Virus record (IMG/VR): IMGVR_UViG_3300025131_000507
Coordinates: 1-21,289 of that record
DNA: 21,289 nucleotides
Source: a virus
Direction: 5' to 3' (one strand)
The notes beneath the pieces were generated by a model, which saw only the letters and a program-made list of their open reading frames with translations, did no database searches and was not told the origin of the DNA. Position numbers and translations under genes: made by a program. This document shows, piece by piece, positions 2,223 through 11,227 of this stretch; positions within the stretch are counted from its first letter, which is position 1; the number at the start of each line of letters is the position of its first letter.

Positions 2223-2912
2223 ATGCCTAAAATAATTAAAGTAGCAAAAGGATCTTACACTGCATCAGATATTACTATCGATTCAGATGGAAGAGTTATT
2301 ACAGCTTCCTCAGGAGGAGGCGCTGCAAATTTAGTTGCAACATTTGGAGACACAGGTCCAAGTTCAGGAAACTATACTGCACAACCAGGTGCTAATTATA
2401 TTGTAGCTTACATAGGTGGCGGCGGAGGCGGCGGCGGAAGAAGTCCCGGTACCGTAATCGGAGCTGCCGGAGGATTTGCTGCTTATGCGACACCTATTTC
2501 ACAACCTTACACAAAAGCATATTCAATTGGAGCTAGAGGAACTGGACAACAAGGACAAGGCGGAAGTGGAAATGCTGGAGGAGCGACTAATTTTGGTTCT
2601 CCTGCAACAGTAACTGCAAATGGTGGAAACGGCGGAGGAGGTCCTGGTGGATCTCAAGGAAGTGTTGGAAGTGTTTCTGGGGCCACTGTAGATCTAACTA
2701 GTAAAGGAAGTTCTAGTAAAGGTTCAATGTTTAATAATAGTATAAGAAGACAAATGGGTTTAGATTTTGTGGTAGAATCACCAACTAATTTTGATGCCAA
2801 TAACCGTATGGTATATCAAGGCTCAGGCGGGGCACAAGCAAACATAGGCGCTGAAGGTGGCGGACCAGGTGGATCTGGTTTCATATATGTTTACGAAAAT
2901 ATAGGTTCTTAA
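2223..2912 (+). CDS. Glycine-rich adhesin-like tail protein
   Basis: The 229-aa protein has a short N-terminal region, then glycine-rich tracts: eight consecutive Gly at residues 65-72, further clusters around 111-148, and a C-terminal run near 200-222. Between these lie short beta-like segments (NYIVAYI at 58-64, and a final GFIYVYENIG). This composition matches glycine-rich domains of phage receptor-binding tips, such as the polyglycine-sandwich architecture known from T4-type gp38 adhesins; homology is not established. Its location after a tail-fibre-like gene fits a receptor-recognition role. The Shine-Dalgarno GAGGAAGG is upstream of the ATG. The next gene starts 2 nt after its stop. Confidence 0.65.
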   Translation: MPKIIKVAKGSYTASDITIDSDGRVITASSGGGAANLVATFGDTGPSSGNYTAQPGANYIVAYIGGGGGGGGRSPGTVIGAAGGFAAYATPISQPYTKAYSIGARGTGQQGQGGSGNAGGATNFGSPATVTANGGNGGGGPGGSQGSVGSVSGATVDLTSKGSSSKGSMFNNSIRRQMGLDFVVESPTNFDANNRMVYQGSGGAQANIGAEGGGPGGSGFIYVYENIGS

Positions 2913-2914
2913 TT

Positions 2915-3337
2915 ATGGCAAAAATAGTAATGTCCTCGTTAGAAGATGGTGGAGTTTATAAAGTTTTTGCTGATCAAGCAGAATTAGATGCTTCGCACAT
3001 AGTTCAATCTGTATATACAATTGTTGATCTATCTGATGCTGATTTAGAAAAAGTTTTAGAAGAAACAGCGACCTTTAAAGTTACTGATGGAGTTTTAGGT
3101 GTTGCTGACATATCCCCTACTTGGAATAAAGCAGAATATCATAACGCTAAAGACAAACTTTTAACTGCCTACAATAGTATGGATGATAAAACTAAGAAAG
3201 CTTCATTAGAGAGTTTTATAGAAACTGTTAATGGCATCGACATAGATTCTTTAACAGTAGATTCATCGGTATCTTTTTGGAAATACGTAAAATCAATAAA
3301 TAGTAACGTCGGTTATCACCCTTTACAATTATTATAA
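2915..3337 (+). CDS. Unknown acidic protein following the adhesin gene
   Basis: The 140-aa protein is not recognised. It is acidic and largely helical in appearance, with a central Asp/Glu-rich part and a segment of alternating Ser, Asp and Val near the C-terminus (DIDSLTVDSSVSFWKYVKS). It starts 2 nt after the glycine-rich adhesin gene, so co-expression is likely. Its place directly behind a candidate receptor-binding protein would fit a fibre chaperone or assembly factor, but no motif supports this. The 3' end overlaps the candidate promoter of the oxygenase cassette. Confidence 0.6.
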   Translation: MAKIVMSSLEDGGVYKVFADQAELDASHIVQSVYTIVDLSDADLEKVLEETATFKVTDGVLGVADISPTWNKAEYHNAKDKLLTAYNSMDDKTKKASLESFIETVNGIDIDSLTVDSSVSFWKYVKSINSNVGYHPLQLL

Positions 3338-3350
3338 TATATATTATAAA
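3322..3350 (+). promoter_or_regulatory. Sigma70-type promoter for the plus-strand oxygenase operon, TTTACA-N17-TATAAA
   Basis: TTTACA (3322-3327) and TATAAA (3345-3350) each match five of six consensus bases with a 17-nt spacer. The -35 box lies inside the last codons of the previous gene. Transcription would begin near 3357, about 29 nt before the first oxygenase gene, so the hairpin at 3352-3381 would lie in or overlap the 5' leader. It gives the cassette its own start independent of the tail operon. The sequence is very AT-rich here, so a chance match is possible. Confidence 0.5.
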
Positions 3351-3351
3351 G

Positions 3352-3381
3352 CCTTTATAATGCTCGAAAGAATTATAAAGG
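3352..3381 (+). promoter_or_regulatory. Perfect 10-bp inverted repeat covering the ribosome binding site
   Basis: CCTTTATAAT (3352-3361) and ATTATAAAGG (3372-3381) are exact reverse complements around a 10-nt loop. The only plausible Shine-Dalgarno of the next gene, AAAGG (3377-3381), is the 3' arm, 4 nt before ATG 3386. A third copy of the arm, ATTATAAAG (3343-3351), directly abuts the 5' arm and could pair with it instead, giving two exclusive folds. There is no U-tract, so it is a poor intrinsic terminator. Translational control of the cassette or an operator are alternatives. Confidence 0.5.
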
Positions 3382-3385
3382 TACA

Positions 3386-3937
3386 ATGCAAAACTTATTT
3401 GTAATAGAAGATTTTTACACTGCTGAAAATTTTGGCTTAATGTCTAATTTTCAAAGAACGTGTAACATGAAAGGTTTACATGTCCCTCAAAATATTTATT
3501 ATCCCTCAAGACTAGAAGCCTTCCCTACATGGGAATCTGATGATTTTGAAAAAGATCAAATAGAATACAACCTTACAGAAAAAACTTTAATTCAAAAAAC
3601 AGAGTTTAAAATTAAAAAAATTAAATCTTTTTTTAGAAAAGTATTAACTTCTGAACTTTTAAAATCCCCCTACAAAGGAAGAAATGAGTCCCTTGTGCAT
3701 CAAGACTCCGACAATTTTGATTGGGCCGGTGTAGTATATTTTGACAGCTTTAGTATAGAGGATGGAACAAGACTGTATTCATATAGAGAACAAGTAAAGC
3801 CTGATGTTATAATTGGGTCTAAGCCCAATAGATGTATAATTTTTAAAGCTGCCTTATTTCATTCGGCGGGAATAGATTGGAATAAAGATTCTAGGACTGT
3901 GCAAACATTTTTTTTAGAAACGGATAAGAATGTTTGA
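3386..3937 (+). CDS. 2-oxoglutarate/Fe(II)-dependent oxygenase-like protein
   Basis: The 183-aa protein ends in a jelly-roll-like segment with the dioxygenase facial triad: H105-Q-D107, then the distal H159 in LFHSAG, and R170 in SRTVQTFFL at the usual distance for the 2-oxoglutarate carboxylate. The segment WAGVVYFD between them fits the core strand. The N-terminal hundred residues are poorly conserved in appearance. The expected reaction is hydroxylation or a related oxidation of an unknown substrate, coupled to decarboxylation of 2-oxoglutarate. It is first in the seven-gene plus-strand operon and overlaps the next gene by 8 nt. Assignment to the superfamily is confident; the subfamily and substrate are unknown. 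Confidence 0.75.
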   Translation: MQNLFVIEDFYTAENFGLMSNFQRTCNMKGLHVPQNIYYPSRLEAFPTWESDDFEKDQIEYNLTEKTLIQKTEFKIKKIKSFFRKVLTSELLKSPYKGRNESLVHQDSDNFDWAGVVYFDSFSIEDGTRLYSYREQVKPDVIIGSKPNRCIIFKAALFHSAGIDWNKDSRTVQTFFLETDKNV

Positions 3938-4676
3938 AAATAAAATAGAATTTAGCGCTCATGAAATATACGTTAATTTGAAAGACAGTTATCCTATTCC
4001 AGCAAAAAATAATTTACCTGAATGGTATAAAAAATTAGATCATACTTGGCCAAAGAGAACTGTTAAAGGGTGCATGCCTTTTTTAGATTCAATGTCAGCA
4101 GGGTACATTTTAAAATTACCTCAGGACTTTTATGTTAACCACAATTTTACCAACGAAGATGGACAAAAGGATACTACTTTTGCCTGTCCTATGACAGAAG
4201 AAGCGGATCTTTTAAATTTACATTTTGTTAATTTAAACCGACAAGGAAATGAACATCATTCTCCACAACAACTTCAAGGCAGTCCACATCTTGAAAAAAA
4301 TAATAATCAAGGAGTTTTAAAGTTTATGAATCCTTGGAAAATAAAAACTCCTCCCGGATATTCTTGTTTATTTGTCCCTCCTCTTAATAATTCAGATGAT
4401 AGATTTAGTATAATACCTGGGATTGTTGATACCGATACATATGATAAAGAGATAAATTTTCCATTCATCATAAATGGAGATAAGTATGAAACTTTAGAAA
4501 CAACTCTGAAAAAAGGAACCCCTTATGTTCAAGTAATACCTTTTAAAAGAGAGGGTTGGAAAATGGTGATTAAAGGAAAAAAATCAAAAGACCTGGTTAA
4601 AGAAAAATTTGGATTTTCTTTAAAATTTTTACATAAATATAAAACACTATACTGGAATAAAAAATCATGGAGATAG
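3930..4676 (+). CDS. Conserved phage protein of unknown function inside the oxygenase cassette (possibly DUF6065-like)
   Basis: The 248-aa protein is of a type I recall next to oxygenase genes in marine phages. Visible blocks are KGCMPFLDSMSAGYILKLP (46-64), FMNPWKIKTPPGYSCLF (132-148), DTDTYDKEINFPFI (167-180) and GTPYVQVIPFKREGW (196-210). The pattern of beta strands and the late GxPxxQVIPF block suggests a cupin or jelly-roll-like barrel. There is no HxD...H triad like that of its neighbours; HH at 109-110 is the only close His pair. The DUF6065 name is from memory and uncertain. It overlaps the genes on both sides (8 and 10 nt), so it is translated with the oxygenases and may be a partner or substrate-binding protein. 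Confidence 0.6.
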   Translation: MFENKIEFSAHEIYVNLKDSYPIPAKNNLPEWYKKLDHTWPKRTVKGCMPFLDSMSAGYILKLPQDFYVNHNFTNEDGQKDTTFACPMTEEADLLNLHFVNLNRQGNEHHSPQQLQGSPHLEKNNNQGVLKFMNPWKIKTPPGYSCLFVPPLNNSDDRFSIIPGIVDTDTYDKEINFPFIINGDKYETLETTLKKGTPYVQVIPFKREGWKMVIKGKKSKDLVKEKFGFSLKFLHKYKTLYWNKKSWR

Positions 4677-5233
4677 ATGCCTTTATTAGAACGTATAAAA
4701 TCATAGAAAAAAAACCGTTGTCTAAATTTTTAGCTTACGTTGAAAAAACAAACGCTTTTAAGGCAGCCCCTATTGTTACTAAAAAAGGATTACAAGTTAA
4801 TACTAAAGTCAGAGATGTTAAAACGTTATTTTTAAATGATTTAGAAAAGAGTTTAACCAATGTTCATTGGTACAATTTTTTTAATAATTGTTTTTTAAGG
4901 TGTTTGGAAGAGTATAAACGAGAAACTAATTCCGAGTTCCTGCACTATCAAAATAATTTTGAAATGAGTGTTTTAAAATATGATACCAATAATTTTTATA
5001 CATGGCACACAGACCATGGTTTAACTACTCCGAGAACCATAAGTTGCATCTTATTGTGTAATGACGACTATGAAGGTGGAGACCTGACATTTAAATTACC
5101 CAACCACGAAGAGTTTTCCGTTGAAAGTAGAGCCGGTGAATTAATAATGTGGCCCAGTAATTTCATGTATCCTCATTGCGTTAAACCTGTAACCAGTGGA
5201 CATAGAATAACCGTTGTTGGATGGGTGGTATAA
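4667..5233 (+). CDS. Prolyl 4-hydroxylase-type 2OG-Fe(II) oxygenase
   Basis: The 188-aa protein carries the full signature of the prolyl-hydroxylase-like group (Pfam 2OG-FeII_Oxy_3 type, as in PiuC): MSVLKYDTNNFYTWHTDHG with H114 and D116, then R123-x-ISCILL, YEGGDLTF (135-142), AGELIMWPSNFMYPHCVKPV with distal H170, and SGHRITVVGW with R180 for 2-oxoglutarate. Length and order are normal for the family, with an extra N-terminal region of about 95 residues. Family members hydroxylate prolyl residues or other protein side chains; the substrate here is unknown. It overlaps the preceding gene by 10 nt and joins the next through a TAATG stop/start. This is the most typical enzyme of the cassette. 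Confidence 0.85.
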   Translation: MEIDAFIRTYKIIEKKPLSKFLAYVEKTNAFKAAPIVTKKGLQVNTKVRDVKTLFLNDLEKSLTNVHWYNFFNNCFLRCLEEYKRETNSEFLHYQNNFEMSVLKYDTNNFYTWHTDHGLTTPRTISCILLCNDDYEGGDLTFKLPNHEEFSVESRAGELIMWPSNFMYPHCVKPVTSGHRITVVGWVV

Positions 5234-5865
5234 TGAAACATAATGTGTGGCCTTTGTTTTCATCTCCTCTTTTTTCAATTGAAACTGGTTTAAAAAAAAA
5301 TGAATTAAAGAAATTAGAAACAAAATTAAAGAAAGAAAAAACAGTCCATAGTCCAATTAATAAAATTAGTGAGAACCCTGAACAAAACAATTTTCATACT
5401 GGACGAGAAGGGTTGTTACAAAAAGAGGAATATGATACTTTAAAAGACGCAGTGATTAAATCCATAAGGTTTATTAATGATAATTATTTTAAATACAAAA
5501 CTAATTTTATCATAAGTGATTCTTGGGTGGCATGGGCTCCCCCAAAAAGCAGCTGTACTATTCACAGACATCAAAATTGTTTTTTAAGCGGAGTGATTTA
5601 TATTAAAGCAAAAGAAGACTGTGGAGATATTGAATTTGAAAACTTTAATCATAGGGACATCTCAGTAGGGCCTAGACACGGGGACACCCTTTATAATGCA
5701 GAACGTTTTTGGGTAAAGCCTGCCCCTGGGTTATTATTATTGTTTCCCAGTAATATGTATCATAAGATACATGAAAATAATTCAAACGAAGACAGGGTCT
5801 CTGTTTCTTTTGATATTATGCCCACATCTTTCTTAAAGAAATACATTGAAAATAATGAAGTATAA
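5233..5865 (+). CDS. 2OG-Fe(II) oxygenase of the PF13759 type
   Basis: The product from ATG 5233 has 210 aa. This start is chosen because TAATG couples it to the previous gene and it gives the family-like N-terminus MKHNVWPLFSSPLF; an in-frame ATG at 5221 would add four residues. The core reads SWVAWAPP, then IHRHQNCFLSGVIYI with H111-R-H113, CGDIEFEN, a glycine turn at APGLLLLFPSNMYH with distal H177, and EDRVSVSFD with R188. This is the classic phage family with an HxH-type metal motif followed by SGVxY. It is predicted to be an Fe(II) enzyme acting on an unknown substrate. Three other PF13759-type genes lie in the cassette. Confidence 0.8.
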   Translation: MKHNVWPLFSSPLFSIETGLKKNELKKLETKLKKEKTVHSPINKISENPEQNNFHTGREGLLQKEEYDTLKDAVIKSIRFINDNYFKYKTNFIISDSWVAWAPPKSSCTIHRHQNCFLSGVIYIKAKEDCGDIEFENFNHRDISVGPRHGDTLYNAERFWVKPAPGLLLLFPSNMYHKIHENNSNEDRVSVSFDIMPTSFLKKYIENNEV

Positions 5866-6379
5866 ATTAATTAAAAATTTTTTGACACAAGAAGAAATTA
5901 ATCTTTGTACGGATTACTGTAGAATACAACACCGGCAAAACAAATTTAATTTTGATAATCAAAACAGTAATTTTGATTCCAGCTTCTATGGGGATCCTTT
6001 AATGGAATCCATGTTGTTAAACAAAAGAAAGTTGGTTGAAAAACATTCAAAGTTAGAACTGTTACCAACTTATTCTTATTTCAGAGTCTACACCTATAAA
6101 TCAGATTTATCCAAACACACCGATAGACCTTCGTGTGAGATCAGTATTACAGTTCACATTAACTCGGACGGCACACCATGGGAAATATATATGGGTGGTA
6201 AAAAATACAGAACTAAACCAGGAGACGCTGTTTTATATAAAGGTTGTGAAATTGAACATTGGAGAGAACCTTTTGAAGGCGACTGGCATGCGCAGGCTTT
6301 TTTACATTATGTAAATTCTAAGGGACCTCATAAAGATTTGTATAAGGATCAAAGAAGAATGTGGGGAGATAAAAAATGA
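5855..6379 (+). CDS. 2OG-Fe(II) oxygenase (HTDRPSCEIS / HAQAFLHY type)
   Basis: The product from ATG 5855 has 174 aa; a TTG at 5846 would add three residues but has no advantage. The core is LLPTYSYFRVYTYKSDLSKH, then TDRPSCEISITVHI with H88 and D90, PWEIYMGG, KPGDAVLYKGCEIEHWREPF with distal H135, and WHAQAFLHYVN. This arrangement, with an Arg right after HxD and Gln rather than Arg in the last strand, is a recognisable phage and bacterial subgroup in which the 2-oxoglutarate contact differs from the standard. The gene overlaps the previous one by 11 nt and the next by 4 nt (ATGA). The substrate is unknown. Confidence 0.8.
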   Translation: MKYKLIKNFLTQEEINLCTDYCRIQHRQNKFNFDNQNSNFDSSFYGDPLMESMLLNKRKLVEKHSKLELLPTYSYFRVYTYKSDLSKHTDRPSCEISITVHINSDGTPWEIYMGGKKYRTKPGDAVLYKGCEIEHWREPFEGDWHAQAFLHYVNSKGPHKDLYKDQRRMWGDKK

Positions 6380-6939
6380 GTTTTTTAGAAACCATGTTTT
6401 GTGATTCAATATATCATTCAACTCTATCCAACGAAAAAATTAAAAAACAATTATTGAAAATTGTGTACGACTTAGAAGAGAATGTTGAATCAAATAAAAA
6501 AACTAATGAAGGCGGCTATCAAAAAGATTTAAATTGTAGAGATTTATTTTCAGATTTAATATCTGAAGACCTTCATAAATATGAAAGACTTTTAAATTTA
6601 AATAAAAAATTAAAGCTGGATAATTTATGGTGTAATATTAATTACAAAAACAGTTATAATGTATCCCATGTACACCCCGAAGTTCATTTCTCAGGAGTCT
6701 ATTATTTAAAGACGCCAAAAAATTGTGGTAAATTAATTTTTACTAATCCCAATACCTTTGTTAGAATGCATTCTGAAATGGAACAAGCAAGTGAACACCC
6801 TGATTTCAAATCTCATTTTTATATAGAACCCGTTCAAAACCTATTGTTAATCTTTCCTTCTTATTTATTACATGAAGTGGCTATTAACAATTCTAATGAA
6901 AAAAGAATATCCATATCTTTTAATTTATGCATCAAATAA
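6376..6939 (+). CDS. 2OG-Fe(II) oxygenase of the PF13759 type
   Basis: The 187-aa protein is a standard member of the family. It shows a short N-terminal FCDSIYHSTL segment, LWCNINYKNSYNVSHVHPEV with H98-V-H100, FSGVYYLKTP, NCGKLIFTNP, LLLIFPSYLLHEV with distal H166, and NEKRISISFNL with R177. A clear Shine-Dalgarno GGGGAG precedes the ATG, which overlaps the upstream stop. Its downstream neighbour (6927-7400) is a related protein lacking the metal ligands. Family members are uncharacterised phage enzymes often found near tail genes; substrate unknown. Confidence 0.85.
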   Translation: MSFLETMFCDSIYHSTLSNEKIKKQLLKIVYDLEENVESNKKTNEGGYQKDLNCRDLFSDLISEDLHKYERLLNLNKKLKLDNLWCNINYKNSYNVSHVHPEVHFSGVYYLKTPKNCGKLIFTNPNTFVRMHSEMEQASEHPDFKSHFYIEPVQNLLLIFPSYLLHEVAINNSNEKRISISFNLCIK

Positions 6940-7400
6940 ATATATTTACAAACTCCTTATTTTTCACAGACCAAAAAGATTCAGAGTTTAAAAAAGAGAC
7001 GATAAAAACAAAAAGTGTGGATAAGGCAAAGTTTACTGACATGTTAAAAAATTTTGCAGCTGGGTTAGCGAAGAATTATAATATAAGTTTTCAAGATGTC
7101 TTTATAGATAATATAAAATACTATGAAGATTTAAAAGACCAGACAAATTTAAAAATTGTTACAACCGATGTTTTGTTTCAAGGCTTATACATGGTGGATG
7201 TTGATGAAGATTGTGGTTTAATTTTTTTTGAAAGAGATTCCGGAGAGTTTATATGTCACCATACTGATTTTATTCCCCAGTTTAATTTCATAGCCAGAGA
7301 GAATACTATTGTATGTCTTCCTTCAAACATTGATTTTAAATTAAAAGAAAATAAGTCAGATAAAAAAAGACGGTATATTTATTTCACTCTATCCGTTTAA
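6927..7400 (+). CDS. Degenerate PF13759-type oxygenase homologue lacking metal ligands
   Basis: The 157-aa protein aligns by eye with the preceding oxygenase in all core strands: VLFQGLYMVDVDEDCGLIFF against VHFSGVYYLKTPKNCGKLIF, ENTIVCLPSNIDFKL against QNLLLIFPSYLLHEV, and KKRRYIYFTL against EKRISISFNL. The two metal His of the HxH motif are replaced by I77 and T79, and the distal His by F137. The late Arg is kept (148/149). A CHHTD sequence at 110-114 could offer ligands but sits at a different place in the fold. The reading frame is intact, so this is a maintained pseudoenzyme rather than a broken gene. It overlaps the previous gene by 13 nt. A scaffold, regulatory or substrate-binding role is inferred. 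Confidence 0.65.
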   Translation: MHQINIFTNSLFFTDQKDSEFKKETIKTKSVDKAKFTDMLKNFAAGLAKNYNISFQDVFIDNIKYYEDLKDQTNLKIVTTDVLFQGLYMVDVDEDCGLIFFERDSGEFICHHTDFIPQFNFIARENTIVCLPSNIDFKLKENKSDKKRRYIYFTLSV

Positions 7401-7885
7401 AAATAAATAAAATTTACATTGATTCTTGCGTCTTGATCAGTGCATGTTGTGCTGTGATGTTTTTGATGTGATTTAAAAAACAACATTCTATTTTCAATAG
7501 ATTTTATTTTATTGTTTGAAAGTCCTGTGTACCCATTATTGTTGTTAATGTAAAGTATAGCGCTGTTACATTTAGGGTCATCATGATCACGATGCAATGC
7601 GTGTTTTTTTATCTTAGGGGTGTGAGGATAAAAATTACATTTTACTCGAAATAGTTTTTTTATTTCTAATTTTAAAAGAATGGGTCCAAGTAAATTAAGG
7701 GCGGGTTGACTCAGTATCTTTTGATCTTCATATACGGTATGACTTAAATAAAAATTTCCTATAGCATTATCTTTTGGATACGCCACATTATTTACATAGT
7801 ACCAGGGGAAGGTGTTAGTGAGTAAGGTATTTTTTATTTTTAAAAACTCATCTTCGGGTAGAAACTTATCTTTTATTTGAAACAT
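7397..7885 (-). CDS. 2OG-Fe(II) oxygenase (NNNGYT type)
   Basis: The 162-aa protein belongs to a group common in marine phages: an N-terminal FPWYY motif (26-30), FRVKCNFYPHTP (79-90), ALHRDHDDPKCNSAILYINN with H98-R-D100, NNGYTGLS (116-123), IENRMLFFKS (130-139), the distal His at H144 (KHHSTTCTD), and ARINVNFIYF with R154. All features of an active enzyme are present. It is last in the minus-strand operon and overlaps the upstream gene by 13 nt. Its stop codon overlaps that of the plus-strand operon. I see no Shine-Dalgarno, so translation may depend on coupling to the upstream gene. Substrate unknown. Confidence 0.8.
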   Translation of the reverse strand: MFQIKDKFLPEDEFLKIKNTLLTNTFPWYYVNNVAYPKDNAIGNFYLSHTVYEDQKILSQPALNLLGPILLKLEIKKLFRVKCNFYPHTPKIKKHALHRDHDDPKCNSAILYINNNNGYTGLSNNKIKSIENRMLFFKSHQKHHSTTCTDQDARINVNFIYF

Positions 7886-8397
7886 TTTATTAAAATATTA
7901 AGGTTAAAACGAACCGCATCTTTTAAAGGAGGATTACCTTTATGTTCAACCATACTTTTATATACTTTTGCTTGGCCTATTTTATCGACATAAAATTTAT
8001 TGTTAATAAAAGTGCCTCCATCGGTCGTGTGTGGATTATATAATATGCTTAAAAAATCGTCGGTGTATTCGTCCTTATGAAGGTCAGTATGATTTTTAGG
8101 AAAATACATATTCCATAAAAATCTTCTTACTTCATATTTTTTAATGTCTAATTGCTCACAGATTTTTTTAGTAATTTTGTATGCTTCTTTATTAAGAGGT
8201 GAATCAAAAGGTTTTCCATCTTCCAATGATAACACACTAAAACCTCCTCCTCTCCCTGCGAACAAGGGAGGCATTAAGTTCCCGTAGTCTAAACATTTCG
8301 TTAAGTACCATTGATGATAACAAAGTTTATTAATTAAAGCTAAGTTTTCTTCCTTTGATAAAATATCATCAATTAAAGTAACCTCATTAGTATTCAT
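7873..8397 (-). CDS. 2OG-Fe(II) oxygenase-like protein
   Basis: The 174-aa protein has an N-terminal LIDDILSKEENLALINKL segment typical of these small dioxygenases, an unusual Gly-rich stretch AGRGGGFSVLS (47-57), and a core with FLWNMYFPKNHTDLHKDEYT (H107-K-D109), DFLSILYNPH, a glycine-containing strand DGGTFINNKFY, VYKSMVEHKG with distal H152, and VRFNLNILI with R163. Triad and Arg spacing fit an active enzyme. It overlaps both neighbours of the minus-strand operon (11 and 13 nt). Subfamily and substrate are unknown. Confidence 0.75.
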   Translation of the reverse strand: MNTNEVTLIDDILSKEENLALINKLCYHQWYLTKCLDYGNLMPPLFAGRGGGFSVLSLEDGKPFDSPLNKEAYKITKKICEQLDIKKYEVRRFLWNMYFPKNHTDLHKDEYTDDFLSILYNPHTTDGGTFINNKFYVDKIGQAKVYKSMVEHKGNPPLKDAVRFNLNILIKCFK

Positions 8398-8956
8398 ATT
8401 TTATGATTCGTTCTTTCAATAAATCCTCTCGAATCTCTTTTACATCAAAATTAAATGAAATAATAGTTCTTTTTTTATTTGTCTCATTGACTCCTGATCT
8501 ATGTATGACGTGGGCGGGAAATACAATAAAATCCCCTTCCACTACTTTTAATGAAATAGCTCGGTTTAAATTAAGGGGGTCGAGTAGCTGGGTATATTGA
8601 TGATTATCAAATTCTAGATAGTACACACCAGTGAGATTATTAGCGTGAATATGCCACCCATGAGTACCCTGGTTTTCATATTGTTGAAACCATAATTCAT
8701 GTATTTTAATTGTTTTAAAACCTATTTTAGAAACCATCTTAACTAAATGGTCGTGGATATGTTGACCCGCATATTTAACCCAAGGCCTCTCAAAGTCCGA
8801 AGATTGATCCCAGTCTAATTTATGAAAGACATCTTCAAACCCTGTTTTACTATAGTTAGTTTTTGATTGATCAATCAACGATAATAGGCTATTTTTAATG
8901 TTTAAATGATTACTAAAGTGCTCTTTTAAAAGAGGAGTTCCTATGGAAAGATTCAT
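8387..8956 (-). CDS. 2OG-Fe(II) oxygenase of the PF13759 type
   Basis: The 189-aa protein begins with IGTPLLKEHF, the usual short N-terminal strand of this family. The core reads HELWFQQYENQGTHGWHIHA with H102-I-H104, then NNLTGVYYLEF, a longer insertion with LLDPLN, EGDFIVFPAHVIHRS with distal H152, and KKRTIISFNF with R163. It is the first gene of the minus-strand operon, close to a candidate promoter whose -10 box ends only 10 nt before the ATG. No Shine-Dalgarno is visible, so a near-leaderless transcript is possible. Substrate unknown. Confidence 0.8.
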   Translation of the reverse strand: MNLSIGTPLLKEHFSNHLNIKNSLLSLIDQSKTNYSKTGFEDVFHKLDWDQSSDFERPWVKYAGQHIHDHLVKMVSKIGFKTIKIHELWFQQYENQGTHGWHIHANNLTGVYYLEFDNHQYTQLLDPLNLNRAISLKVVEGDFIVFPAHVIHRSGVNETNKKRTIISFNFDVKEIREDLLKERIIKYEY

Positions 8957-8966
8957 AAAAACATGT

Positions 8967-8994
8967 ATTATAGGTTTTTTTAAAAAATTGTATA
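8967..8994 (-). promoter_or_regulatory. Candidate sigma70 promoter for the minus-strand oxygenase operon, TATACA-N16-TATAAT
   Basis: Read on the minus strand, TATACA (8994-8989) and a perfect -10 box TATAAT (8972-8967) are separated by 16 nt. The -10 is 10 nt upstream of ATG 8956, so the leader would be only a few nucleotides. The 66-nt gap between divergent genes (8957-9022) also contains T7A6 runs. No convincing plus-strand promoter for the gene at 9023 was found in it; TATACT (8991-8996) with a weak TTATAG -35 is the best candidate. Confidence 0.45.
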
Positions 8995-9022
8995 CTGTAA
9001 ATTTAAATGATAAATAATTAAT

Positions 9023-11227
9023 ATGCTACAAAAAATAGGTTTTTTACCTGGATTCAATAAACAAGTTACTGCTACCGGAGCAGAAGCACAATGGACTGGT
9101 GGGGAAAATGTGCGCTTTAGATATGGTACTCCCGAAAAAATAGGTGGGTGGAATCAATTAGGACAAGATAAATTAACAGGTGCAGCGCGACAGATGCATC
9201 ATATTGTTAATAAAGACTCAGTAAAATTTTCTATTATAGGTACTAACAAAATTTTATATGCGTATACTGGTGGTGTATTTTATGACATTCACCCATTAGT
9301 TAATCCGTCAGGTACAGCCATCTCTAATGCTTTTAGTACAACTAATAATGATCCTGTTGTAACTATTACTGCTACTTCTCATGGTTTTCAAGCTGGAGAC
9401 ATTTGTTTATTTGGTGACAGTTCTACCTTCAGTGCAATAACAAATTCTAATTTTGGATCATCCGATTTTTGTGATAAAAAATTTATGGTTACTACAGTTG
9501 TAGATTCAGATAATTTTAAAATTACAATGGATTCTAATGAAACAGGAAGTGGTGCTACTACTTCTGGAGGTATAACTTATTATAGATACTATCACGTAGG
9601 ACCTGCTGAACAGTTGGGAGCTTATGGTTTTGGTATATCATTATATGGTGGTACAATTTTAGGTTCAACTACTACTACACTAACAGCACCTGGATTAGGC
9701 GACAATGCTTATGGAACAGGTGGCTCAGGAACTACAGTTAATGTTGGAAGTACCACAGGATTTCCTTCTTCAGGAACTAATTATTTTCAAGTAGGAAGTG
9801 AAGAAATTTCTTACACAGGCGTAACAGCCACAAGTTTTACAGGAATTACTAGAGCGGTTAGAGGTTCAACAAGAGCTGCGCACAGTGGTGGAGCTACTAT
9901 TACTAATACATCTAGTTGGACTGGATGGGGTTCTGCAGCATCAAACACTGACAAAACTATTGACCCAGGATTATGGTCCATTGATAATTTAGGAGATAAT
10001 CTTATCGCCTTAATTCATAACAGCGCGGTATTTGAATGGGATTCTGCTGCAAGTAATGCTACATCAACGAGAGCTACTATTATATCTGGAGCCCCAACAG
10101 CATCCAGAGATATGTTAGTATCTACACCTGATCGTCACTTAGTTTTATTTGGAACAGAAACAACGATTGGAGATACATCTACCCAAGATGATATGTTTAT
10201 TAGATTTTCTTCTCAAGAAGATATAAATACATGGGCACCAACAGCAATCAATAGTGCGGGTACACAAAGACTGGCCGCCGGATCACGGATCATGGGAGCT
10301 AAACTTGGTAAATCTGCAATTTATGTATGGACCGATACAGCTTTATTTACCATGAGATTTGTAGGTACTCCGTTTACTTTCGCCTATGATCAAGTAGGTA
10401 CAAACTGTGGATTAATAGGAATGAATGCAGCCGTTGAGGTAGATGGTTCTGCTTACTGGATGTCTGAGAATGGTTTCTTTAAATATAGTGGTAAACTAGA
10501 TTCACTGGACTGTTTGGTTGAAGACTATGTTTATGATGACATTAATAAAACTTCTAACCAATTAATATACTGTGGATTAAATAACTTGTTTGGTGAAATT
10601 ATGTGGTTTTATCCCACTAGTACATCTAATGTAAATGACAGAGCTGTGGTTTATAGTTATTTAGATTCTACAGCAGAGAGACCTATCTGGTTTACAAACG
10701 CGAGTTCAATTTTTAGAAGAACTACTTGGATTGATTCTGCTATTTTTGGTTTACCCCATGCTACAGATTATAATGCTTCTGACGACGCTTCGTTTGATGT
10801 GACGGGAAATACTGAAGGAACCACTATTTATTATGAGCATGAGACAGGGGTAAATTATATTAAAGGAGGAACTACATATGCAGTGCCTTCTAACATTCTT
10901 TCAGGTGATTTTGACATTACTCAAGACCAACAAAGAGGTATTACTTTTAGAGGAGATGGAGAATTTATCATGAGGATCAGTAGATTTATACCAGACTTTA
11001 TTAGTCAAAGTGGAACAGCTATAGTAGAGTTTGATCTTAGAAATTTTTCTAATCAAGCCGCAGTAAGCTCGACATTAGGTCCTTTTAATGTTACAACCAG
11101 CACTACATATCAATCGTGCAGAGCACGAGCGAGGTCTATTGCTGTTAAAGTATCAAACACAGCTATAGATTCAAATTGGAAACTAGGTACATTTAGATTA
11201 GATGTACACGCAGGAGGAAGAAGATAA
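9023..11227 (+). CDS. Large tail nozzle/stabilisation-type virion protein
   Basis: The 734-aa protein starts with MLQKIGFLPGFNKQVTATGA and continues QWTGGENVRFRYGTPEKIGG, a signature I know from marine phage structural proteins. The length and beta-rich repeats (IGTNKILYAYTGGVF, NSAVFEWDS, STPDRHLVLFGTE, GKSAIYVWTDTALFTM, SGKLDSL) fit a beta-propeller tail-tube end protein like T7 gp12 or P22 gp10; that parallel is inferred. Two inserted modules are visible: residues about 97-190 (DPVVTITATSHGFQAGD) and about 239-295 (VGSEEISYTGVTATSF, GITRAVRGSTRAAHSGG). No Shine-Dalgarno is seen before ATG 9023. It ends in TAATG joined to the next gene and directly follows the oxygenase cassette. Confidence 0.7.
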   Translation: MLQKIGFLPGFNKQVTATGAEAQWTGGENVRFRYGTPEKIGGWNQLGQDKLTGAARQMHHIVNKDSVKFSIIGTNKILYAYTGGVFYDIHPLVNPSGTAISNAFSTTNNDPVVTITATSHGFQAGDICLFGDSSTFSAITNSNFGSSDFCDKKFMVTTVVDSDNFKITMDSNETGSGATTSGGITYYRYYHVGPAEQLGAYGFGISLYGGTILGSTTTTLTAPGLGDNAYGTGGSGTTVNVGSTTGFPSSGTNYFQVGSEEISYTGVTATSFTGITRAVRGSTRAAHSGGATITNTSSWTGWGSAASNTDKTIDPGLWSIDNLGDNLIALIHNSAVFEWDSAASNATSTRATIISGAPTASRDMLVSTPDRHLVLFGTETTIGDTSTQDDMFIRFSSQEDINTWAPTAINSAGTQRLAAGSRIMGAKLGKSAIYVWTDTALFTMRFVGTPFTFAYDQVGTNCGLIGMNAAVEVDGSAYWMSENGFFKYSGKLDSLDCLVEDYVYDDINKTSNQLIYCGLNNLFGEIMWFYPTSTSNVNDRAVVYSYLDSTAERPIWFTNASSIFRRTTWIDSAIFGLPHATDYNASDDASFDVTGNTEGTTIYYEHETGVNYIKGGTTYAVPSNILSGDFDITQDQQRGITFRGDGEFIMRISRFIPDFISQSGTAIVEFDLRNFSNQAAVSSTLGPFNVTTSTTYQSCRARARSIAVKVSNTAIDSNWKLGTFRLDVHAGGRR

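Follow-up and report, generated by a model that had tools for sequence, protein, structure and literature searches.

The ten-gene array and its members

The viral DNA record IMGVR_UViG_3300025131_000507 (21,289 bases, analysed whole and referred to here as the window) is probably a fragment, its last gene running off the end, and it carries an array of oxygenase-type genes set among the genes of a phage tail. Ten open reading frames (ORFs), c1 to c10, fill positions 3386-8956, with overlaps of a few bases between neighbours; c1 to c7 (3386-7400) lie on the plus strand and c8 to c10 (7397-8956) on the minus strand. To the left stand the small tail genes g1 to g5, and to the right g16 (9023-11227, plus strand), a nozzle or stabilisation-type virion gene (phrog_3287) that borders the locus and served as the anchor of our comparisons. 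An original prediction had placed a ten-gene block between adhesin genes and a nozzle gene, and ORFs with Pfam and PHROG matches confirm the block, the proposed limits (3322-8994) being about 40-65 bp too wide on each side. The window holds the conserved virion genes, in the same order, that define HTVC023P-type phages: g16 shares 43-45% identity with its counterparts in 023Pt_psg01 and in HTVC023P and HTVC027P, two SAR11 phages cultured on HTCC1062, and g1, g2, g19 and g22-g24 have counterparts in HTVC027P and 023Pt_psg01. By this gene content, the window phage is an HTVC023P-type (SAR11-phage) marine podovirus.

Nine of the ten genes are of oxygenase type, as had been predicted, and eight of these have a plausible metal site. 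Homology to the 2-oxoglutarate (2OG) oxygenase superfamily was found through Pfam for c3, c4, c6 and c10, and through PHROG cross-matches to 2OG families, hhalign or fold for c1, c5, c8 and c9, with the weakest hhalign support in c9 (25%) and c1 (5%). The HxD/E...H facial triad is invariant or nearly so in c1, c3, c5, c8 and c9, as seen in family alignments and in our survey, so that HxD-type sites are conserved in five of the nine. Gene c3 (4667-5233, plus strand) is a prolyl 4-hydroxylase (P4H)-like member of PF13640 (6e-16) whose profile matches P4H/PKHD structures, and c1 (3386-3937, plus strand) has weak matches to DUF6445 and to phrog_1644, which bears the label 'minor coat protein'; both keep HxD...H. 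Genes c8 (7397-7885, minus strand; NNNGYT type, phrog_274) and c9 (7873-8397, minus strand; a divergent phrog_274 relative) keep HxD...H...R and HxD/E...H...R, respectively. The PF13759-type genes c4 (5221-5865, plus strand; Pfam 4e-21), c6 (6376-6939, plus strand; 6e-26, with matches to the solved structures 3bvc and 2rg4) and c10 (8387-8956, minus strand; 2e-8, also matched in PHROG) lack this triad and carry HxH...H, a motif present in at least 90% of 25 PF13759 sequences and also in solved 3bvc. Superfamily homology stands for these three, and they are candidates for 2OG use. Four genes had been assigned to this type, a count that is reached only by including the degenerate c7. All ten genes are under purifying selection, with ratios of nonsynonymous to synonymous rates (dN/dS) of about 0.04-0.33 in nearly all comparisons and 0.63 in one paralogue comparison, and c1 to c10 are therefore real genes. 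Any Fe(II)/2OG-dependent activity of the array proteins is putative.

Gene c7 (6927-7400, plus strand) limits the prediction of nine dioxygenases, and leaves the view that all nine are enzymes without support. It had no library match, and its profile aligns to that of PF13759 (hhalign 96%, E 2e-9); neither metal motif occurs in any of 7 sequences aligned, and its dN/dS is 0.06-0.19 where measurable. We read c7 as a conserved pseudo-oxygenase that has lost the iron ligands.

The gene c5 (5846-6379, plus strand, with an in-frame ATG at 5855), of the HTDRPSCEIS type, is called 'ferrochelatase' in phage records. Its model has a predicted local distance difference test (pLDDT) score of 90.5, and the 50 PDB structures that match it best are oxygenases, for the most part prolyl hydroxylases such as P. 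putida P4H and PHD2, with 0 of 50 being a ferrochelatase. The H, D and distal H are invariant in the family alignment, and a profile search of solved structures gave no sequence-level match to solved P4H. The label thus looks wrong, and c5 appears to have an oxygenase fold resembling that of prolyl hydroxylases. The same label covers phrog_2954 and phrog_3531 and is used in published heme and iron hypotheses for pelagiphages and cyanophages. The label 'DNA endonuclease V' attached to c8 and c9 also looks wrong: neither has an endonuclease V match in Pfam, and c8 aligns to the PF13640 profile.

The tenth gene, c2 (3930-4676, plus strand), had rightly been singled out as an unknown gene among oxygenases. 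It probably belongs to DUF6065 (23 bits, below the cut-off of 26.6), matches phrog_7084 at 9e-48 and aligns with its relatives; an oxygenase identity was rejected on a negative profile comparison. A sequence search of its profile against solved structures gave no useful match, and a model of moderate quality (pLDDT 73) matched dUTPase weakly (E 4e-4, template modelling score (TM) 0.38 by query length), a likeness that serves as a lead only. DUF6065 is common to SAR11-type phages, cyanophages and many haloarchaeal tailed viruses (HF1/HF2-type haloviruses). A genome scan for cellular DUF6065 returned four loci only, two of which are evident phage contigs that repeat the trio c2-c3-c5. Loci L264 and L265, filed under a Maricaulis metagenome-assembled genome and an alphaproteobacterial single-cell genome, are evidently phage DNA with this trio.

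Recurrence, joint exchange and adhesin type

The genes of the array belong together, as proposed: close relatives carry the set in the same order, apart from small inversions or losses in some of them. All ten are found in the same order in L002 and L004-L007 (L numbers denote loci of relatives); L002 is 99.9% identical to the window over 12.7 kb and is therefore not counted as an independent witness. In L008 c8 and c9 are inverted, in L009 c6 and c7 are swapped and c8 is lost, in L010 c8 is lost, and L003 is cut inside c3. The trio c2-c3-c5 is kept in more distant phages (L011, L012, L051, L056, L060, L264 and L265), with c2 of L265 at 38% identity. Neither of two outcomes set beforehand as counting against the cassette, genes occurring singly and scattered or hidden Markov model searches failing for most of them, came true. 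The number of oxygenase genes is variable, from 1 to 10 in the same interval of HTVC023P-type relatives. That density alone is remarkable, as had been thought, is not supported, given one relative with 10 such genes at this locus and the arrays of 5-6 beside tail genes in HTVC008M and Mosig. The genomes of HTVC027P and 023Pt_psg01, together with 50 of the 61 kb of HTVC023P, contain 12 oxygenase-like genes, all 12 in this tail region and none elsewhere.

The array does not move alone. Nucleotide identity to L003-L006 and L008 is mostly 84-100% from about 2250, the start of g4, into the cassette, and mostly 40-75% outside; the high-identity stretch begins at about 1950 in L005. For L005 and L006 it ends at about 9000-9300 and for L004 within c8-c9, while L003 ends early and identity to L008 falls earlier in the plot because c8 and c9 are inverted there. 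Synonymous distances to L004-L006 and L008 are mostly 0.03-0.5 inside this segment (exceptions above 1 being c9 and c10 of L004 and c7 and c10 of L008), against 1.1-1.4 in g16. These contrasts in identity and synonymous distance indicate that phages of diverged backbone swapped g4 and g5 jointly with most, if not all, oxygenases. We therefore regard g4, g5 and the cassette as one exchange module, and the description of the cassette as self-contained was wrong. The left member of the module, g4 (2223-2912, plus strand; at least 84% nucleotide identity to relatives here), is by composition a Gly-rich (24.5% Gly) tail-tip adhesin-like gene with no match in Pfam; g5 (2915-3337, plus strand) is, from comparison with relatives, a small partner gene that lies between adhesin and cassette and moves with the latter.

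The presence of oxygenases follows the type of adhesin upstream. Loci anchored on the nozzle gene carry Gly-rich adhesins (PF21722) with a small partner, collar (PF07484), repeat or g4/g5 types, or LamG (PF13385) with DUF7483. Under these classes, which were defined after data inspection, oxygenases occur in 46 of 48 non-LamG loci and in 1 of 28 LamG/DUF7483 loci (Fisher 4e-17), with L015, L017 and L030 (all non-LamG) scored positive by hand as their oxygenases stand before, not after, the last adhesin gene. On supported branches of the nozzle tree we counted 14 independent adhesin switches, of which about 13 were concordant with oxygenase presence and 0 discordant (sign test, p about 2e-4). 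Two further samples, each the best 80 by similarity and both partly redundant and made of partial contigs, were anchored on other genes: any oxygenase was found in 1 of 77 DUF7483-anchored loci (681 kb), 25 of which carry g16 and so enter the tree test too, and oxygenases in 79 of 80 loci anchored on the Gly-rich partner. In the latter, the gene after the Gly-rich adhesin and its partner was of tailoring type in 79 of 79 cases, 68 times the triad-less family ox4, then usually c3, c6 and c5, and the order adhesin-partner-ox4-c3-c6-c5 was found again in dozens of contigs. None of 78 ox4 sequences has a metal site. Among annotated phages, ox4 (L184-L263, e.g., L205:5036-5536) was found only in HTVC023P and 023Pt_psg01. 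That c7 and ox4 are the same family was rejected on a negative hhalign comparison, though each relates to PF13759. The partner ('MAHF') protein was likewise rejected as an obligate oxygenase marker, being present without oxygenases in six cultured phages.

The same neighbourhood is seen in other lineages. The array of HTVC008M adjoins the partner and Gly-rich gene, that of Mosig comes shortly after the Gly-rich gene, MW202483 and DSL-LC04 have one oxygenase each in this position, and HTVC023P has a second Gly-rich gene followed by an oxygenase of its own. Proline makes up 5.6% of oxygenase-linked and 2.5% of unlinked Gly-rich proteins (p 8e-4 before correction, 17 residues tested, in a comparison with only 10 unlinked proteins that are not phylogenetically independent), and cysteine 1.2% and 0.1%, respectively. 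A GNTPPVSPPQG loop is frequent in the linked proteins, and peptides of the sequence GNTPPVSPPQGN come from relatives; g4 itself has 4.4% proline. Relatives also have further tailoring enzymes at this locus: a tryptophan (Trp) halogenase (PF04820, 2e-91), sulfotransferases, a carbamoyltransferase and methyltransferases. The tailoring-type gene that comes after the Gly-rich adhesin and partner is sometimes a Trp halogenase or a sulfotransferase. Flavin-dependent Trp halogenase genes lie inside the oxygenase array at L094:3862-5394, with relatives in L039, L069, L078, L079 and L095. Next to a sulfotransferase, L074:768-1497 has an AAA/APS-kinase-like gene together with what may be a nucleotidyltransferase, possibly as a local supply of sulfate donor.

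Proposed function and alternatives

We propose, at a probability of about 0.48, that the target of the array is the phage's own adhesin, which it would modify as the virion is assembled. The proposal draws on the co-transfer of g4, g5 and c1-c10, the dependence on adhesin type and the confinement to the tail locus; on the resemblance of c3 and the predicted fold of c5 to prolyl 4-hydroxylases and the higher proline of linked Gly-rich proteins; and on the same neighbourhood in unrelated lineages and other group-adding enzymes at the locus in relatives. The oxygenases would act on the g4-type adhesin in assembly, hydroxylating the side chains of proline and perhaps of other residues in its loops, each enzyme taking a separate site; holding or presenting the substrate would fall to the triad-less proteins, c7 in the window and ox4 in relatives. 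Where halogenases, sulfotransferases or carbamoyltransferases are co-located, as in some relatives, they would add further groups. Such modification may stabilise the adhesin or diversify receptor-binding chemistry past the twenty amino acids. More tentatively, all these enzymes and their triad-less partners may form a post-translational tailoring line that finishes a Gly/Pro-rich adhesin, the enzyme set being passed on and exchanged together with the adhesin on which it works. Modification of virion tips, one idea of the original prediction, thereby gains indirect support from the adhesin-type linkage and co-transfer, with substrate and activity putative.

Several observations weigh against modification of the adhesin. 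We infer the substrate and the activity of the array from sequence, and the HxH triad of c4, c6 and c10 leaves the chemistry of these three undecided. Collar- and repeat-type adhesins also accompany oxygenases, so no single substrate fits all. HTVC025P, Greip, phiPsal1, CRP-143, Bellamy and Melnitz have the Gly-rich gene and partner with no oxygenases up to 5 kb on each side, and g4 of the window is without the GNTPPVSPPQG loop seen in relatives. Finally, in the cyanophages P-SSM7 (L103:9977-10549) and S-CAM22 (L106:9977-10543) a relative of c5 is located far from the tail genes, with dam on one side and clamp-loader genes on the other. As to another possible substrate in the tail, g1 (182-1075) ends in a repeated KSPKNTTGY-like tail where its homologues have different short repeats (TGSNTSYS), as would suit a tip that changes fast; the g1 tail was rejected as the substrate, since such tails vary widely among loci with and without oxygenases.

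The alternative that is hardest to separate from adhesin modification by sequence alone is that the array modifies the host surface, a receptor protein or glycan, during infection, for example blocking superinfection or preventing released virions from sticking to debris. Linkage to adhesin type is equally expected here, as receptor and adhesin must match, and sulfotransferases and carbamoyltransferases, present at the locus in relatives, usually target glycans or small molecules. We consider it unlikely, however, since the array sits among virion genes and not in an early host-takeover region, and we noticed neither an export signal nor a membrane gene in it, no predictor having been run. A further alternative is that these are auxiliary metabolic genes whose products target small molecules or deplete 2OG and shift host nitrogen or iron metabolism, as suggested for cyanophages and pelagiphages (proposed in PMC3037559 and discussed in PMC9599517 and PMC12753301). 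This explanation fails to predict adhesin-type dependence, adhesin co-transfer or tail-locus confinement, its iron and heme argument rests on a 'ferrochelatase' that appears to be an oxygenase, and it seems rather improbable.

The two conserved triad-less families, c7 and ox4, are kept under constraint and c2 is a non-oxygenase, all of which would suit a non-catalytic role of the array, whether in chaperoning assembly or as part of the tail-tip structure. The invariant or nearly invariant metal-site residues in the families of c1, c3, c5, c8 and c9 speak against such a role, as do the halogenases and sulfotransferases at the same locus in relatives, and we hold it to be less probable still. 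Least probable of all is AlkB/TET-like modification of nucleotides or phage DNA with DUF6065 as a dUTPase-like helper: the weak dUTPase-like fold of c2 and the position of the c5 relative beside dam in cyanophages are in its favour, but c3 and c5 are most like prolyl hydroxylases, the locus lies amid virion genes and the fold match of c2 is weak.

Known systems and significance

Neither the dense array nor its location is unique to the window, and co-located 2OG genes have been published. Wittmers et al. 2022 (PMC9599517) described eight non-orthologous 2OG genes in HTVC023P-type pelagiphages, often co-located with 'ferrochelatases'. The phage group is the same; there, however, the genes were treated as metabolic and the partner as a ferrochelatase, whereas here that partner is itself a predicted oxygenase, and the presence of the genes goes with the adhesin type and with an exchange module that contains the adhesin. 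In the pelagimyophages HTVC008M and Mosig EXVC030M, tail genes and a Gly-rich gene likewise neighbour a run of 5-6 oxygenase-like genes from the same families, but these phages are myoviruses, and the stretches read showed no DUF6065 or triad-less member. Sullivan et al. 2010 (PMC3037559) reported a suite of 2OG, PrnA, carbamoyltransferase and 'ferrochelatase' genes in T4-like cyanophages as sporadic host-like genes. The enzyme families are the same; here several recur at one tail locus, whereas the c5 relative lies among replication genes in both cyanophages read. Prolyl 4-hydroxylases (bacterial P4H, EGLN/PHD) resemble c3 by profile and c5 by predicted fold, with an HxD...H site, but differ in that c5 lacks a sequence-level match to solved P4H and the substrate of the array is putative. 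Within an incomplete coverage of the literature, we found no report of adhesin dependence, of the exchange module, of a pseudo-oxygenase or of a reclassified phage 'ferrochelatase', and searches on DUF6065/DUF6445 and on oxygenase-modified tail fibres returned nothing.

Ocean phages very commonly carry oxygenase genes, which most studies have treated as metabolic. The predicted reclassification of the c5 family would take away the phage 'ferrochelatase' that underlies published hypotheses. If the array does act on the adhesin, these phages would widen the chemistry of their receptor-binding tips past the genetic code.

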